Assembly (NCBI RefSeq): GCF_030813715.1
Contig: NZ_JAUSUZ010000001.1
Span: 5,828,001 to 5,892,000 of the forward strand
Reading direction: 5' to 3'
Source: Catenuloplanes indicus
GTDB lineage: Bacteria; Actinomycetota; Actinomycetes; Mycobacteriales; Micromonosporaceae
Length of the DNA stretch: 64,000 nt
Position numbers and translations under genes: made by a program. Each line of letters begins with the position of its first letter. Position 1 is the first letter of the stretch. Of this stretch, positions 10,905 to 30,630 are shown piece by piece. Under the pieces are notes generated by a model that saw only the letters and a program-made list of their open reading frames with translations, made no database searches and was not told where the DNA came from.

Positions 10905-10922
10905 TACGGGCGGATTCCAGGG

Positions 10923-12192
10923 GTCGTTGCAACACAGTTGATCAACTGGTTTTGGTTAAGAGTTTAGTGAAGCGCTCGGCTGGGGTGTCCCAGCCGAGCG
11001 TTTTGCGTGGGCGTCCGTTGAGTTCGATGGCGACGGCGTCAAGGTGGTCGCGGCCGTGGACGGACAGGTCGGTGCTTTTCGGGAAGTATTGGCGTAGCAG
11101 GCCGTTGGTGTTCTCGTTGCTACCGCGTTGCCAGGGTGAGTGCGGGTCGCAGAAATAGACCGGGGTGCCGGTAGCGATGGTGAACTGCTGGTGCAGGCTC
11201 ATGTCGATGCCCTGGTCCCAGGTCAGCGACCGGCGTAGCTGTGTGGGCAGGTGGCCGATGGTGGCGGTCAGGGCGTCTCGGACGAGGTCGGCGGTGCGGC
11301 CGGCCGGCAGGTGGACGAGCATGACGTAGCGGGTGTGGCGTTCGACCAGGGTACCGATCGCGGAGCGGTTGTCCTTGCCGATGATCAGGTCGCCTTCCCA
11401 GTGACCGGGCACCGCGCGGTCGTCGGCCTCGGCGGGGCGTTCGCTGATCATGATCATCTCGGTGGCCATCCGGGGAGTGCGCTGCTGAGCCTGGCGGCGA
11501 GGCCGGCGGACCGCGCGACCGGTGCGTAACGCGGTGGTCAGCTCGCGGCGTAGCGCGCCGCGGCCTTGTACGTAGAGCGCCTGGTAGATCGTCTCGCGGG
11601 CCACGTGCATCTCCGGGCGGTCGGGAAAGTCCCGCCTGAGCGTCGCACAATCTGTTCGGGGCTCCACTTGAGGTCCAGCCGATCCTGGACCGCCTGCCGC
11701 AGCTCAGGACTGGCGGCGATCTTGCTGATTTTCGGGCGGGACCGGCGTGCCTGTGCACGCGCCTGCGCCGCGTGGGGCCGGTAGTCACCGCTGACCGGAT
11801 GCGCGTTACGCCGCAGCTCACGACTGATCGTCGATGGTTCACGGTCCAGTTCCACGGCGATCTGCCGGACTGAGGCCTGTTCGCGACGCCGGTCAGCGAT
11901 ATACAGACGTTCTTCCTCATTGAGGAACCGGCCACGCACCGACGGTGACGGCCCGGCCGTGATCGGCGGTGCCGCCTTTTCACGGCCGGTCGGGTTACGG
12001 CCGTTCCGCCAACGCCGGCCGGTCCGGACGTTGATCCCGACGACCCTGCACGCTTCTGCCGTTCCGACACCCTGACCCACGAGCGCAAGATATGCCTCAC
12101 GCTCGCGGGTCAGACGCCGACGGCCCTGAACAACCGAACGGTCCCGGATCTCGAAGTCCATCGCATTCCCTGAACTGGGGTGTTGCGACGAC
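10923..12192 (-). mobile_element. IS30-family insertion sequence, about 1.27 kb
   Basis: The element is bounded by 13-bp near-perfect terminal inverted repeats: GTCGTTGCAACAC at 10923-10935, and the complement of GTCGTCGCAACAC at 12180-12192 (one mismatch). It contains one transposase gene transcribed leftward. Size, ends and transposase fit IS30. I see no clear target duplication. It sits in the loop of a rho-independent terminator, and with a broken transposase it cannot move by itself. Confidence 0.85.
10942..12161 (-). pseudogene. IS30-family transposase, frameshifted
   Basis: The N-terminal part (ATG 12161) has the helix-turn-helix region ASVRQIAVELDREPSTISRE and runs into DLKWSPEQIVRR near 11655. 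The continuation (LRRDFPDRPEMHVARETIYQ and the DDE core) is in the -1 frame and ends at 10942. Catalytic residues are intact: D in PGHWEGDLI, D in LTWDQGIDM and E in RGSNENTNG. One missing base near 11650 explains the break. There is no slippery heptamer, so programmed frameshifting is unlikely. A sequencing error is the alternative. Confidence 0.8.
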
Positions 12193-12209
12193 TGCTAGAA
12201 CCCAAGCCG

Positions 12210-12265: not shown

Positions 12266-12339
12266 CGCGGGGTGGAGCAGCTCGGTAGCTCGCTGGGCTC
12301 ATAACCCAGAGGTCGCAGGTTCAAATCCTGTCCCCGCTA
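12266..12339 (+). tRNA. Initiator tRNA-fMet(CAT), copy 1
   Basis: A 74-base cloverleaf without encoded CCA and with anticodon CAT. The anticodon stem carries three consecutive G:C pairs (GGGCTCATAACCC), and the 1:72 position is unpaired (C:U). Both are hallmarks of bacterial initiator tRNA. The acceptor stem is CGCGGGG/CCCCGCT. Its T stem (GCAGG/CCTGT) differs from copies 2 and 3. Confidence 0.95.
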
Positions 12340-12347
12340 CGAGGGTC

Positions 12348-27239: not shown

Positions 27240-28730
27240 ATGTCCGCCGTACCCGTAACCGCGCCCACGCGCCGCACCTGGATCGCGCTCGGTGTGCTCG
27301 CCACCACAACGCTGATGACCATTTTGGACGGCAGTATCGTCACGGTGGCGCTACCCGCCATGCAGGCCGACCTCGGCTTCTCGCCGAGCGCGTTGAGCTG
27401 GGTGATGAACGCGTACCTGCTCGGCTTCGGCAGCCTGCTACTGCTCGCCGGCCGGCTCGGCGACCTGATCGGCCGGCGCCGCGTCTTCCTGGCCGGCACC
27501 GCGATCTTCACGGTCGCGTCCGTGCTGGCCGGCGTCGCGACCGGCGCCGGCACGCTACTGGCCGCGCGGTTCGTGCAGGGCGTGGGCAGCGCGGCCGCCA
27601 CCGCGGTCAGCCTCGGCATCCTGGTCGCGCTGTTCGCCGAGGGCCGGCATCGTGCGTTCGCGATCGCGGTGTTCAGCTTCACCGGCGCGGCCGGTGCCGC
27701 GATCGGCCAGGTGATCGGCGGCATCCTCACCGAGGCAGCCGGCTGGCACTCGATCTTCCTGATCAACCTGCCGATCGGCGCGGCCGCGATCGGGCTCGGC
27801 GCGCTCGTCCTGCCGGCCGACCGCGGCGTCGGCCTCCGCGCCGGTGCGGACGTGCTCGGCGCGCTGCTGGTCACCACCGGCCTGGCGCTGGCGCTGCACA
27901 CCGTGGTCATCGGCGCCGAACACGGCCCCTCCGAGACCGTCGCGATCACCGGGCTGACCGCCGCCGCGCTGCTGGCCGCGTTCGTGCTCCGGCAGGCGAC
28001 CGCCACGTACCCGCTGCTGCCCTTGCGGATCTTTCGCCACCGCGCGGTGACCGGTGCCAACGCGGCGCAGATCCTGATCCTGGCCGCCATGTTCGGCTTT
28101 CAGGTGCTGGTCACGCTCTACATGCAACGCGTCCTCGGCTGGTCCGCACTCGACACCGGCCTGGCCATGCTGCCCGCCGCGCTGCTGATCGGCACGATCT
28201 CGCTCACCGCGTCCGCGCCGCTGATCTCCCGCTTCGGTGCGCGCCGCATCCTGCTGGCCGGCCTGTCCCTGCTCGCGCTGCTGTTCGCCTGGCTCGCCCG
28301 TCTCCCCACCGACGGCACGTATGCGACCGACATCCTGCCCGCGATGCTGCTCGCCGCCGGCGCCGGCCTCGTTCTCCCCGCCCTGACCACGCTGGGCATG
28401 TCCGCCGCCGGCCCGGCCGACGCCGGCCTTGCCTCCGGCATCTTCAACACCACCCAGCAGATCGGCATGGCCCTCGGCGTCGCCACCCTCTCCGGCCTCG
28501 CCGCCACCCGAACCCACACCCTGACCAGCACCGGTACGCCCGAGGCGGAGGCCCTGACCGCCGGCTACCGCCTCGCCTTCCTGGCCGGCGCCAGCCTCAT
28601 CCTCGCCGCCATGGCCCTGACCACCCTCATCCTCCGCCCGGGTGCAACCCGCGGCCGCTCAATGGATTCGCAGTTTTCGCCAATCCGAGCTAGGGTTGAG
28701 AAACCGACGCGGGGTGGAGCAGCTCGGTAG
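27240..28730 (+). CDS. DHA2-type MFS multidrug efflux transporter
   Basis: A 496-residue protein with about 14 membrane helices. DHA2 features are visible: LDGSIVTVALPAMQADLG in helix 1, the loop GRLGDLIGRRRVFLAG (motif A) and a motif C-like segment GAAGAAIGQVIGGILTEAAGW. It is a probable proton-driven exporter controlled by the upstream MarR. The start has GGGAGGA. The last 20 or so residues (after LRPGATRGR) are not transporter-like: they are read through the tRNA promoter, and the TAG stop (28728-28730) lies inside the initiator tRNA gene. Confidence 0.92.
   Translation: MSAVPVTAPTRRTWIALGVLATTTLMTILDGSIVTVALPAMQADLGFSPSALSWVMNAYLLGFGSLLLLAGRLGDLIGRRRVFLAGTAIFTVASVLAGVATGAGTLLAARFVQGVGSAAATAVSLGILVALFAEGRHRAFAIAVFSFTGAAGAAIGQVIGGILTEAAGWHSIFLINLPIGAAAIGLGALVLPADRGVGLRAGADVLGALLVTTGLALALHTVVIGAEHGPSETVAITGLTAAALLAAFVLRQATATYPLLPLRIFRHRAVTGANAAQILILAAMFGFQVLVTLYMQRVLGWSALDTGLAMLPAALLIGTISLTASAPLISRFGARRILLAGLSLLALLFAWLARLPTDGTYATDILPAMLLAAGAGLVLPALTTLGMSAAGPADAGLASGIFNTTQQIGMALGVATLSGLAATRTHTLTSTGTPEAEALTAGYRLAFLAGASLILAAMALTTLILRPGATRGRSMDSQFSPIRARVEKPTRGGAAR
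28667..28696 (+). promoter_or_regulatory. Promoter of initiator tRNA copy 2
   Basis: TTCGCA (28667-28672), 18 bp, TAGGGT (28691-28696). It lies inside the 3' end of the MFS reading frame. Confidence 0.5.
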
Positions 28731-28781
28731 CTCGCTGGGCTCATAACCCAGAGGTCGTCAGTTCAAATCTGGCCCCCGCTA
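28708..28781 (+). tRNA. Initiator tRNA-fMet(CAT), copy 2
   Basis: 74 bases. It has the same initiator hallmarks as copy 1 (three G:C pairs in the anticodon stem, unpaired 1:72) but T stem GTCAG/CTGGC, which includes a U:G pair. It is identical to copy 3. The stop codon of the MFS gene lies in its D-arm. Confidence 0.93.
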
Positions 28782-28789
28782 CGAGGGTC

Positions 28790-28829
28790 GAGGGTGTCGT
28801 GTTCGCGGAAAGCGCGAACCGGCACCCTC
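28790..28829 (+). terminator. Terminator of initiator tRNA copy 2
   Basis: Outer stem GAGGGTG/CACCCTC and inner stem GTTCGCG/CGCGAAC, followed by a second hairpin CTCCGGGGC-CGA-GCCCCGGAG. Confidence 0.7.
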
Positions 28830-28952
28830 TTCGCATTCTGCTCCGGGGCCGAGCCCCGGAGACCCCACGTGCCGGGGGTGCGCTGCGTGGGGCGGTGCGC
28901 TAGGGCGGTGCGCTAGGGCGGTGCGGGGGCGGTGGGGTGGGGTGGTGCTGGG

Positions 28953-29627
28953 ATGATTTTGTTGTCGGATCCGGCTGTGGCGGCGATCGGGGCCGGGGAG
29001 AACGGCGAGGAGCTGGTTGACGCGCGTGGGCTGCTGCGCGTCGATGAGCGGGCGGCGGAGCCGAGTGGGCGCTTCGCACTGTTACGCAGCGGTGTGGTGG
29101 AACGGCTGTTGAAAGCGCAGGCGGCACTGCCGGGTGGGTTGCAGCTGCTGATGATCGAGGGCTATCGGCCCTACGACGCGCAGCTCGCGATCTTCACTGG
29201 CTATCGCGACCAGTTGCGCGGGCGCTACCCGGACTGGTCGGATGAGCGCGTGCACGTCGAGACCACCAAGTTCGTCTCGCCGGTGGAAGTCGCGCCGCAC
29301 AGCACCGGCGGCGCGGTCGATCTGACGCTCTGCGACTCCGGCGGCCACGAGATCGACATGGGCACCCCCGTCGACGCCACCCCTGACGACAGCAACAACG
29401 CCTGTTTCACCGCTGCGGTCAACATCTCGCCTGAGGCAGCCCGTAACCGGCGCATCCTGTCCGACGCACTCACGTCAGCCGGCCTGATCAACTATCCCAC
29501 CGAGTGGTGGCACTGGTCCTACGGCGAACGCTACTGGGCTCTCATGACCGGCAAATCCACCACCCTCTACGGCCCCATCCGCCTCCAGGACGAACACCGC
29601 CCTCGCACCGCCCCCGCACCGCCCTAG
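28953..29627 (+). CDS. VanX-like D-Ala-D-Ala dipeptidase (M15D)
   Basis: About 224 residues. The zinc site of the VanX/M15D family is clear: HSTGGAVDLTL (zinc histidine and aspartate) and EWWHWSYGERYW (catalytic glutamate and third histidine), with YRPYDAQ upstream. VanX-type enzymes cleave D-Ala-D-Ala, either for glycopeptide resistance or for cell-wall recycling. No vanH, vanA or vanRS genes are nearby, so recycling is more likely. There is no good ribosome-binding site. The start lies just outside the left arm and the stop codon inside the right arm of the inverted tRNA repeat. Confidence 0.85.
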   Translation: MILLSDPAVAAIGAGENGEELVDARGLLRVDERAAEPSGRFALLRSGVVERLLKAQAALPGGLQLLMIEGYRPYDAQLAIFTGYRDQLRGRYPDWSDERVHVETTKFVSPVEVAPHSTGGAVDLTLCDSGGHEIDMGTPVDATPDDSNNACFTAAVNISPEAARNRRILSDALTSAGLINYPTEWWHWSYGERYWALMTGKSTTLYGPIRLQDEHRPRTAPAPP

Positions 29628-29697
29628 CGCACCGCCCCACGCAGCGCACCCCCGGCACGTGGGGTCTCCGGGGCTCGGCCCCGGAGCAGAATGCGAA

Positions 29698-29737
29698 GAG
29701 GGTGCCGGTTCGCGCTTTCCGCGAACACGACACCCTC
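29698..29737 (-). terminator. Terminator of initiator tRNA copy 3
   Basis: Mirror copy of the structure at 28790-28829. Confidence 0.7.
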
Positions 29738-29745
29738 GACCCTCG

Positions 29746-29819
29746 TAGCGGGGGCCAGATTTGAACTGACGACCTCTGGGTTATGAGCCCAGCGAGCTAC
29801 CGAGCTGCTCCACCCCGCG
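29746..29819 (-). tRNA. Initiator tRNA-fMet(CAT), copy 3
   Basis: 74 bases on the minus strand, identical to copy 2 in the mature region, including the GTCAG/CTGGC T stem. Confidence 0.93.
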
Positions 29820-29830
29820 TCGGCTCGGTA

Positions 29831-29860
29831 ACCCTAGCTCGCTGGGGTGGGGATGTGCAA
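29831..29860 (-). promoter_or_regulatory. Promoter of initiator tRNA copy 3
   Basis: On the minus strand TTGCAC, 18 bp, TAGGGT. The -10 is inside the repeat arm and the -35 outside it. This copy therefore has its own -35, better than that of copy 2. Confidence 0.6.
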
Positions 29861-30024
29861 AACGATTGACGCTCGATCGTGTTGTGGCTGGTGGTGAGGC
29901 GAGGCGGCGGGGGTGCGGGGTGGAGCGAATAATGGGCGGTGTTCGCTGTGCGGGGAATCGCTTGGTTCGGGGGCCGCGGCGGCGGAGTGTTGACGAGGAC
30001 GTTGAAACGAGGGGTGGTTTGCGC

Positions 30025-30630
30025 ATGGACAGGGACGAGCTCGTGATGCGTGCGGGCGGCGGCAGCTTCGATGACGAGGTGTTCCAGCGGCTGCTCCGTG
30101 AGCGGATCATCTTCCTGGGCAGCCAGGTGGACGACGCGGTGACGAACCGGATCACCGCGCAGATGCTGCTGCTGGCGTCGGAGGACAGTGAGAAGGACAT
30201 CTCGCTGTACATCAACTCGCCGGGTGGTTCGATCAGCGCCGGCATGGCGGTCTACGACACGATGCAGTACATCAAGAACGACGTGGCCACGATCGCGATC
30301 GGCATGGCGGCCTCGATGGGCCAGTTCCTGCTGTGCGCGGGCACGCCGGGTAAGCGGTACGCGCTGCCGCACGCGCGGATCATGATGCACCAGCTGTCCG
30401 GCGGTATCGGCGGTACGGCGGCGGACATCGCGATCCAGGCGGAGAGCATGCTGCACATCAAGAAGGTCATGAACGAGCGGATCGCGTTCCACACCGGTAA
30501 GACGCCGGAGCAGATCGAGCGTGACTCGGACCGGGACCGCTGGTTCACCGCGGACGAGGCCAAGGAGTACGGCATCGTCGACCACGTGATCAGCCGGGCG
30601 AACGCGGGAGCGGGCGCGAACCTGCTCTGA
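30025..30630 (+). CDS. clpP: ClpP-type serine peptidase
   Basis: 201 residues. The catalytic triad falls at canonical positions: Ser97 (GMAASMGQFLL), His122 (RIMMHQ) and Asp171 (SDRDRW). The oligomerisation motif INSPGGSISAGMA is intact. ATG 30025 gives the standard N-terminus; a longer in-frame frame from 29866 is Arg/Gly-rich and unlikely. No second clpP, tig or clpX gene adjoins it, so it is probably an extra paralogue beyond the usual clpP1-clpP2 pair. The partner ATPase is unknown. Confidence 0.93.
   Translation: MDRDELVMRAGGGSFDDEVFQRLLRERIIFLGSQVDDAVTNRITAQMLLLASEDSEKDISLYINSPGGSISAGMAVYDTMQYIKNDVATIAIGMAASMGQFLLCAGTPGKRYALPHARIMMHQLSGGIGGTAADIAIQAESMLHIKKVMNERIAFHTGKTPEQIERDSDRDRWFTADEAKEYGIVDHVISRANAGAGANLL

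Follow-up and report, generated by a model that had tools for sequence, protein, structure and literature searches.

What does a large inverted repeat built from two identical initiator tRNA genes mean for the single gene that it encloses? The question arises at 28686-29841 of a 64,000-nucleotide (nt) stretch of the Catenuloplanes indicus genome (hereafter the window, meaning the whole stretch analyzed), in which two tRNA-fMet genes flank a gene of the VanX-like M15 dipeptidase family. A preliminary description of the window proposed that the tRNA arms let the dipeptidase gene invert. We consider a different answer likely: the window holds a multicopy initiator tRNA locus in which two copies, B and C, would have been homogenized by gene conversion, their promoters would have stayed bound to their sites, and the interval of copy B and the dipeptidase gene would have been rearranged repeatedly. 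Comparison of aligned genomes shows homogenization within genomes, upstream regions that are specific to their sites, and repeated change of relative orientation. These patterns suggest that the likeness of the tRNA copies and of their tails is maintained by recombination and that turning of such genes has been frequent at the locus.

Structure of the inverted repeat

ARAGORN identified three tRNA-Met(CAT) genes in the window, at 12266-12340 (+), 28708-28782 (+), and 29745-29819 (-), here called copies A, B, and C. Rfam RF00005 recovered the same three, in agreement with the earlier count of three initiator tRNA genes in 17.5 kilobases (kb). Initiator tRNAs are recognized by an unpaired 1-72 position and by GGG/CCC in the anticodon stem; the genes have a CAT anticodon, C and T unpaired at positions 1 and 72, and an anticodon stem ending in GGG/CCC. 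A search of the window's own genome gave near-complete tRNA matches at these three places only, all within the window. Copies B and C are identical in sequence, and copy A differs from them in its T stem (CAGG..CCTG instead of TCAG..CTGG) and also in its terminator.

The near-perfect inverted repeat that drew attention to this locus is real. Its 227-nt arms (28686-28912 and 29615-29841) are 98% complementary, and an additional paired block (28903-28934 with 29606-29637) carries the paired tails to 28934 and 29606. The longest exact inverted repeat measures 209 nt; dinucleotide-preserving shuffles of the 1350-nt region (n = 100) reached 13 nt at most, with a mean of 10.2 nt. Each arm contains a tRNA-fMet gene, a terminator hairpin, a 21-nt palindrome of the repetitive extragenic palindromic (REP)-like kind, and a GC-rich tandem tail; aligning the arms, as had been proposed, confirmed identical tRNA copies with matching terminators and tails. 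The spacer of 671-702 nt contains one gene, that of the M15 dipeptidase, as first described, although the end of the gene overlaps arm 2. No recombinase gene lies between the arms, where the dipeptidase gene stands alone (no search was aimed at recombinases elsewhere). The upstream regions of the tRNA copies, we infer, are working promoters. The parts are as follows.

12266..12340, + strand: tRNA-fMet copy A, T stem CAGG/CCTG (ARAGORN, Rfam)
28660..28707, + strand: upstream (putative promoter) region of copy B, ATTCGCA ... TAGGGT (alignment)
28686..28934, + strand: inverted repeat arm 1 (self-alignment, exact-repeat test)
28708..28782, + strand: tRNA-fMet copy B (ARAGORN, Rfam)
28790..28829, + strand: terminator-like hairpin 3' of copy B (DNA fold, alignment)
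28841..28861, no strand: REP-like palindrome of arm 1, CTCCGGGGCCGAGCCCCGGAG, a region that has partial matches scattered through the rest of the genome
28887..28948, + strand: GC-rich tail of arm 1, 13-nt tandem units (Tandem Repeats Finder)
28953..29627, + strand: VanX-like M15 dipeptidase family gene, 224 amino acids, ATG at 28953 and stop at 29627 (Pfam)
29606..29841, - strand: inverted repeat arm 2 (self-alignment, exact-repeat test)
29666..29686, no strand: REP-like palindrome of arm 2 (self-alignment)
29745..29819, - strand: tRNA-fMet copy C, divergent from clpP (ARAGORN, Rfam)
29820..29875, - strand: upstream (putative promoter) region of copy C, CGTTTTGCACATCC ... TAGGGT (alignment)

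Homogenized tails and site-specific upstream regions in Catenuloplanes

Five Catenuloplanes genomes were compared, the window's and four others (G001 to G004). On a single contig, G004 has the order of the window, namely tRNA B (+), dipeptidase (+), tRNA C (-), and clpP, and its arms match over 239 nt at 99% before passing into tandem tails. The possibility that an assembler duplicated one tRNA copy in inverted form, which had been put forward as a way to refute the repeat, can be given next to no weight. Contigs of the draft genome G002 do break at these tRNAs, but the inverted repeat of G004 has its own arm sequence, which makes an artifact unlikely, and the two arms of the window carry different upstream regions.

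Homogenization was assessed across the four copies B and C of the window and G004, with gaps treated as a state and only clean two-against-two columns counted. Over the tRNA and its downstream sequence, all 24 such columns grouped the copies by genome; upstream, all 12 grouped them by site. Downstream identity of B and C was 1.00 within each genome and 0.91 between the two. Over 50 nt upstream, B and C shared 0.68 identity in the window and 0.78 in G004, and identity between genomes was 0.78 for the two B copies and 0.88 for the two C copies. The upstream region of the window's copy C was similarly close to that of G003 (0.86), so the site signal is clear for C and weaker for B. The idea that the arms were homogenized by gene conversion within each genome, one of the origins first suggested for their identity, is thus well supported. 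The process itself, a non-crossover conversion, we infer from these sequence patterns. Because the upstream columns sort by site, B and C were probably separate before the window and G004 diverged; the common ancestor probably already had both, each with its present promoter, and the tRNA and tail have since been homogenized separately in each lineage.

Recent copying of B from C, or of C from B, in each lineage would likewise produce identity within a genome, which would then reflect age and not conversion. Copy number does vary, with G001 lacking copy B, and in a genome of a neighboring genus (G238, below) the second copy looks copied from the first. We nevertheless judge this account improbable, since the upstream columns leave only the tRNA and tail as new material: copying that included the promoter is already contradicted, and copying of the tRNA and tail alone would be conversion in all but name.

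The other genomes of the genus differ in the arrangement of the locus between two neighbors.

27240..28730, + strand: MFS transporter reading frame, running on into tRNA B; left junction (Pfam)
30025..30630, + strand: ClpP protease gene, right-hand neighbor (Pfam)

Read in the orientation of the window, the order in G003 is MFS, dipeptidase (-), tRNA B (-), about 0.9 kb, tRNA C (-), and clpP, that is, the unit of copy B and the dipeptidase gene is inverted and both flanks are unchanged. Copies B and C are direct there and share the tRNA only (79 nt). The draft G002 has B and C in tandem, with contigs ending in tRNA copies and the order partly inferred from those ends. G001 is without copy B and without the dipeptidase gene, and its copies A and C are convergent and 20 kb apart. 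In the window, the MFS gene ceases to resemble its G001 and G003 counterparts at 28639 and 28657, its frame continuing into tRNA B, and for the copy B upstream region the BLAST matches to the B copies of G003 and G002 likewise begin at 28660. These junction marks at 28639-28660 fit a rearrangement in the window.

The same comparison bears on the proposed switch, in which a RecA-dependent crossover between the tRNA arms would invert the dipeptidase gene and maintain two coexisting orientations. Perfect inverted homology of 209 nt at a distance of about 0.7 kb is enough for homologous recombination in principle, and the gene is indeed inverted relative to its flanks in G003. However, tRNA B and its upstream region were inverted along with the gene in G003, an outcome that crossover between the arms would not give. 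The window and G004, the only two genomes comparable for the inverted pair, share one orientation of the gene, and in three of the four Catenuloplanes genomes that have both, the gene follows tRNA B in the 3' direction and shares its strand (the order in G002 being pieced from contig ends). We therefore hold such a switch to be unlikely. Comparing synteny in relatives, as had been recommended, recovered the same repeat in G004 and lent no support to flipping of the gene between the arms.

The arm tails consist of tandem arrays, of 13-nt units in the window (28887-28948), of 74-75-nt units in G004 (L012 1054-1418), and of 71-nt units containing REP-like palindromes in G003 (L086 9362-9975). As in REP elements, the palindromes here are short, dispersed, GC rich, and located 3' of genes; in G003 they lie within tandem arrays.

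Under the conversion reading, non-crossover homologous recombination would copy the tRNA, terminator, and REP-containing tail between B and C within a genome. Each copy would retain the promoter of its own site, promoter-replacing conversions being rare or removed, and promoter-tRNA units would be turned or moved separately among outer genes whose order and strand stay fixed. In the window, a rearrangement would have left B and C convergent, so that the homogenized stretch reads as an inverted repeat. The dipeptidase gene would ride as cargo of the interval, and switching of its orientation forms no part of the explanation.

Orientation and homogenization in a neighboring genus

We surveyed 66 genomes of a neighboring genus, g26, labeled Actinoplanes-like on grounds of kinship and not from a record. 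Two initiator genes lay on one contig at most 40 kb apart in 56 of them (G144 added by hand), as direct pairs in 29, convergent pairs in 27, and divergent pairs in none; the other ten had copies on different contigs (five genomes) or one match (five). The left anchor genes W5.3 and W7.9 kept their relative strand in 56/56 genomes, and copy A pointed away from them in 55/56, the exception being G174. The right anchor, W30.8, never differed in strand among the 25 genomes that showed it past the second tRNA, whatever the direction of that tRNA. On a tree built from three anchor proteins, relative orientation needed 11 changes, of which supported branches force 9 (bootstrap range, 9-12).

Downstream identity between copies A and C of one genome exceeded every same-site match elsewhere in 16 of 55 genomes, so that here, as for B and C of the window and G004, paralogs within a genome were more alike than orthologs, the pattern of concerted evolution. 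Upstream, this was seen in 0/55. The flanks had site-specific ancestry, with exceptions in degree (G029, G186, G208, and copy B of G004). The repeat shared by A and C mostly consisted of just the tRNA (about 79-84 nt) or of the tRNA with tens to hundreds of nt downstream, with few intermediate cases; it extended more than 40 nt downstream in 21/55 genomes and upstream in 2/55 (G029 and G186). The homogenized state changed at least 13 times on well-supported branches. As the 16 homogenized pairs comprise 8 direct and 8 convergent ones, inversion is not the cause of homogenization, and no effect of orientation on it was found in 9 independent pairs on supported branches, among which too few pairs differed for significance. 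Spacing was unrelated to arm length (Spearman rho, 0.08 for the 29 direct pairs, including the faulty row of G116, and 0.10 for the 27 convergent pairs). The concern that long inverted repeats are unstable in bacteria therefore carries little force: convergent initiator tRNA pairs, at spacings of 0.3-38 kb, occur in 27/66 genomes of this genus, and homogenization is as frequent in direct pairs.

How the copies came to be turned is suggested by one clade, in which the second-copy promoters of G132 and G129 are alike in direct and convergent species, a likeness that favors turning of an existing copy. The breakpoints of turned units could not be read, because alignment between sister species was confined to the tRNA arms and the outer genes. 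As a candidate route, inversion between flanking REP palindromes is not supported: CCGGGG-type palindromes stood on both sides of copy C in 1/60 genomes, of copy A in 6/60, and of copy B in 0/3.

Between the paired tRNAs lies ordinary cargo (MFS transporters, MarR regulators, lectins, and lipases). One interval protein of G204 (L164 4585-6012) modestly matches the Toxin_10 domain (Pfam PF05431, E = 4.4e-8), and in G228 an insertion sequence (IS)-type transposase is the first of the scanned interval proteins. tRNA 3' ends are classical attachment sites, and such a cargo site of variable content might suggest that site-specific integration at a tRNA 3' end supplied the tail and the second copy. 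Also in keeping with this is a stretch of about 10.7 kb in G003 (7108145-7118840), inserted right after copy A, where it replaces the usual terminator. We think an integration scar very unlikely, as the copies are whole tRNAs with their own upstream regions and not 3' fragments, and a search along the G003 insert, its far end included, turned up no second tRNA fragment of more than 13 nt. Neither was a tyrosine-integrase family seen among the 25 commonest of 129 families in a scan of 112 of 146 predicted interval proteins, which left out the middles of the longest intervals and in which single hits are possible, and ten interval proteins scanned individually contained no integrase.

Several observations weigh against conversion between copies with site-bound promoters in a repeatedly rearranged locus. 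Loss and re-copying of the tRNA and tail alone would give a like pattern to that seen in the window and G004. Some of the 24 downstream columns fall within the repetitive tail, and the alignment of the upstream rows omitted a one-base gap seen in another alignment. The upstream region of G004 copy B is equally close to G004 copy C (0.78) and to window copy B (0.78), and that of window copy B is slightly nearer, by global identity, to G003 copy C (0.74) than to G003 copy B (0.70). Copy A of the window is not homogenized with B or C at 16-17 kb, whereas the 38-kb pair of G212 is, so distance provides no simple rule. One clade has partly homogenized upstream regions (51 nt in G029 and G186, 33 nt in G208); the promoter boundary is thus not absolute. 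The orientation tree rests on three neighboring proteins, and the right anchor was seen in 25/56 genomes; on 24 of these (G174 left out; 6 direct, 18 convergent), 3 changes are forced. G174 has its first copy turned, a copy A with an A-type promoter, and one outer left gene, W3.2 or W4.7, lies on the opposite strand in six genomes. In G238, which has a direct pair, the second copy shares more upstream bases with the first copies of G230 and G190 than with the second copies of those two genomes, which fits new copying rather than turning. Finally, no flanking palindromes were found that account for the turning of units.

The dipeptidase gene, copy A, and the wider locus

The enclosed gene belongs to Pfam Peptidase_M15 (E = 1.2e-23; 84.4 bits against a gathering score of 27 bits). 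Its product aligns with VanX (PDB 1r44) over residues 48-190, including the H..D and EWWH positions, which we take to be zinc ligands. It shares these residues and the Pfam family with the D-Ala-D-Ala dipeptidases VanX and DdpX but scores far below the NCBIfam equivalog cut-offs (46.3 against 320 bits for VanX; 72 against 176 bits for DdpX), and its scanned neighbors are MarR, MFS, and ClpP (vanH and vanA were not searched for). The last codons of the gene lie inside arm 2, so that its frame ends in the arm 2 tail; the stop comes earlier in G004. Four of the five Catenuloplanes genomes carry the gene. Outside the genus, no tRNA stood beside its homologs at any of 34 loci (0/34, with fetched flanks of up to 5 kb per side); at one of these loci, L020 of C. 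japonicus, the contig ends inside a tRNA. The gene is best read as Catenuloplanes cargo at a plastic initiator tRNA locus. In G003 (L086 10411-11184), its start codon lies about 17 nt past the tRNA B terminator hairpin, with a ribosome-site-like GGAGGG sequence, so readthrough from the tRNA could feed the gene.

Copy A lies beside the same left-hand genes in 8/9 genomes of other genera compared, and its sequence type is widespread among the matches listed; on this comparison, it probably marks the ancestral site in the family. Both T-stem types (CAGG/CCTG and TCAG/CTGG) are found side by side in the genomes of the window, G001, and G004, and copy A of G002 and G003 is of the second type. An IS-like insertion at 10911-12208 of the window, with an rve-domain transposase (Pfam PF00665) and not present in G004, ends about 57 nt upstream of copy A. 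In 36/60 genomes, GC-rich hairpins were found within 150 nt upstream of copy A, as against 11/60 for copy C; in G129 and G004, such a hairpin encloses the -35-like bases TTTTGCA/TTTGCA of copy A.

Several initiator tRNA genes, often as neighbors, are known from metZWV of Escherichia coli, and genus g3 has direct pairs 0.2-0.4 kb apart (G006, G042, and G059). The locus described here differs from both in that the partner copy has been turned repeatedly and that variable cargo lies between the copies. In the open-licence full-text literature searched, no title concerned inverted initiator tRNA pairs in bacteria, and none reported repeated reorientation of a second initiator tRNA gene with mostly one-sided homogenization. 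Ribosomal RNA (rRNA) operons of E. coli undergo concerted evolution by gene conversion (PMC8022953). The two systems are alike in that intragenomic recombination keeps gene copies for translation RNAs alike. They differ in that the copies here are single initiator tRNA genes, close together and often inverted, and in that homogenization covers the tRNA, terminator, and REP-containing tail and mostly ends at the promoter.

Two identical tRNA genes that form an inverted repeat are, on their own, no evidence for a switchable gene between them. The wider pattern, repeated reorientation of the second initiator tRNA gene with mostly one-sided homogenization, is the more interesting result. Its internal boundary, between the promoter and the tRNA with its tail, separates homogenizing from turning, and about 60 genomes offer a natural test system for both processes in bacterial tRNA gene copies. 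More tentatively, and at odds that we ourselves would not favor, the initiator tRNA genes of relatives of Actinoplanes and Catenuloplanes might form a recurrent rearrangement system, in which promoter-tRNA units are turned many times between fixed flanks and the copies trade 3' cassettes of tRNA, terminator, and tail, the exchange being strongly biased to the 3' side so that promoters stay where they are. If true, this would point to directional or transcript-related recombination, or to strong selection for two differently regulated initiator genes.

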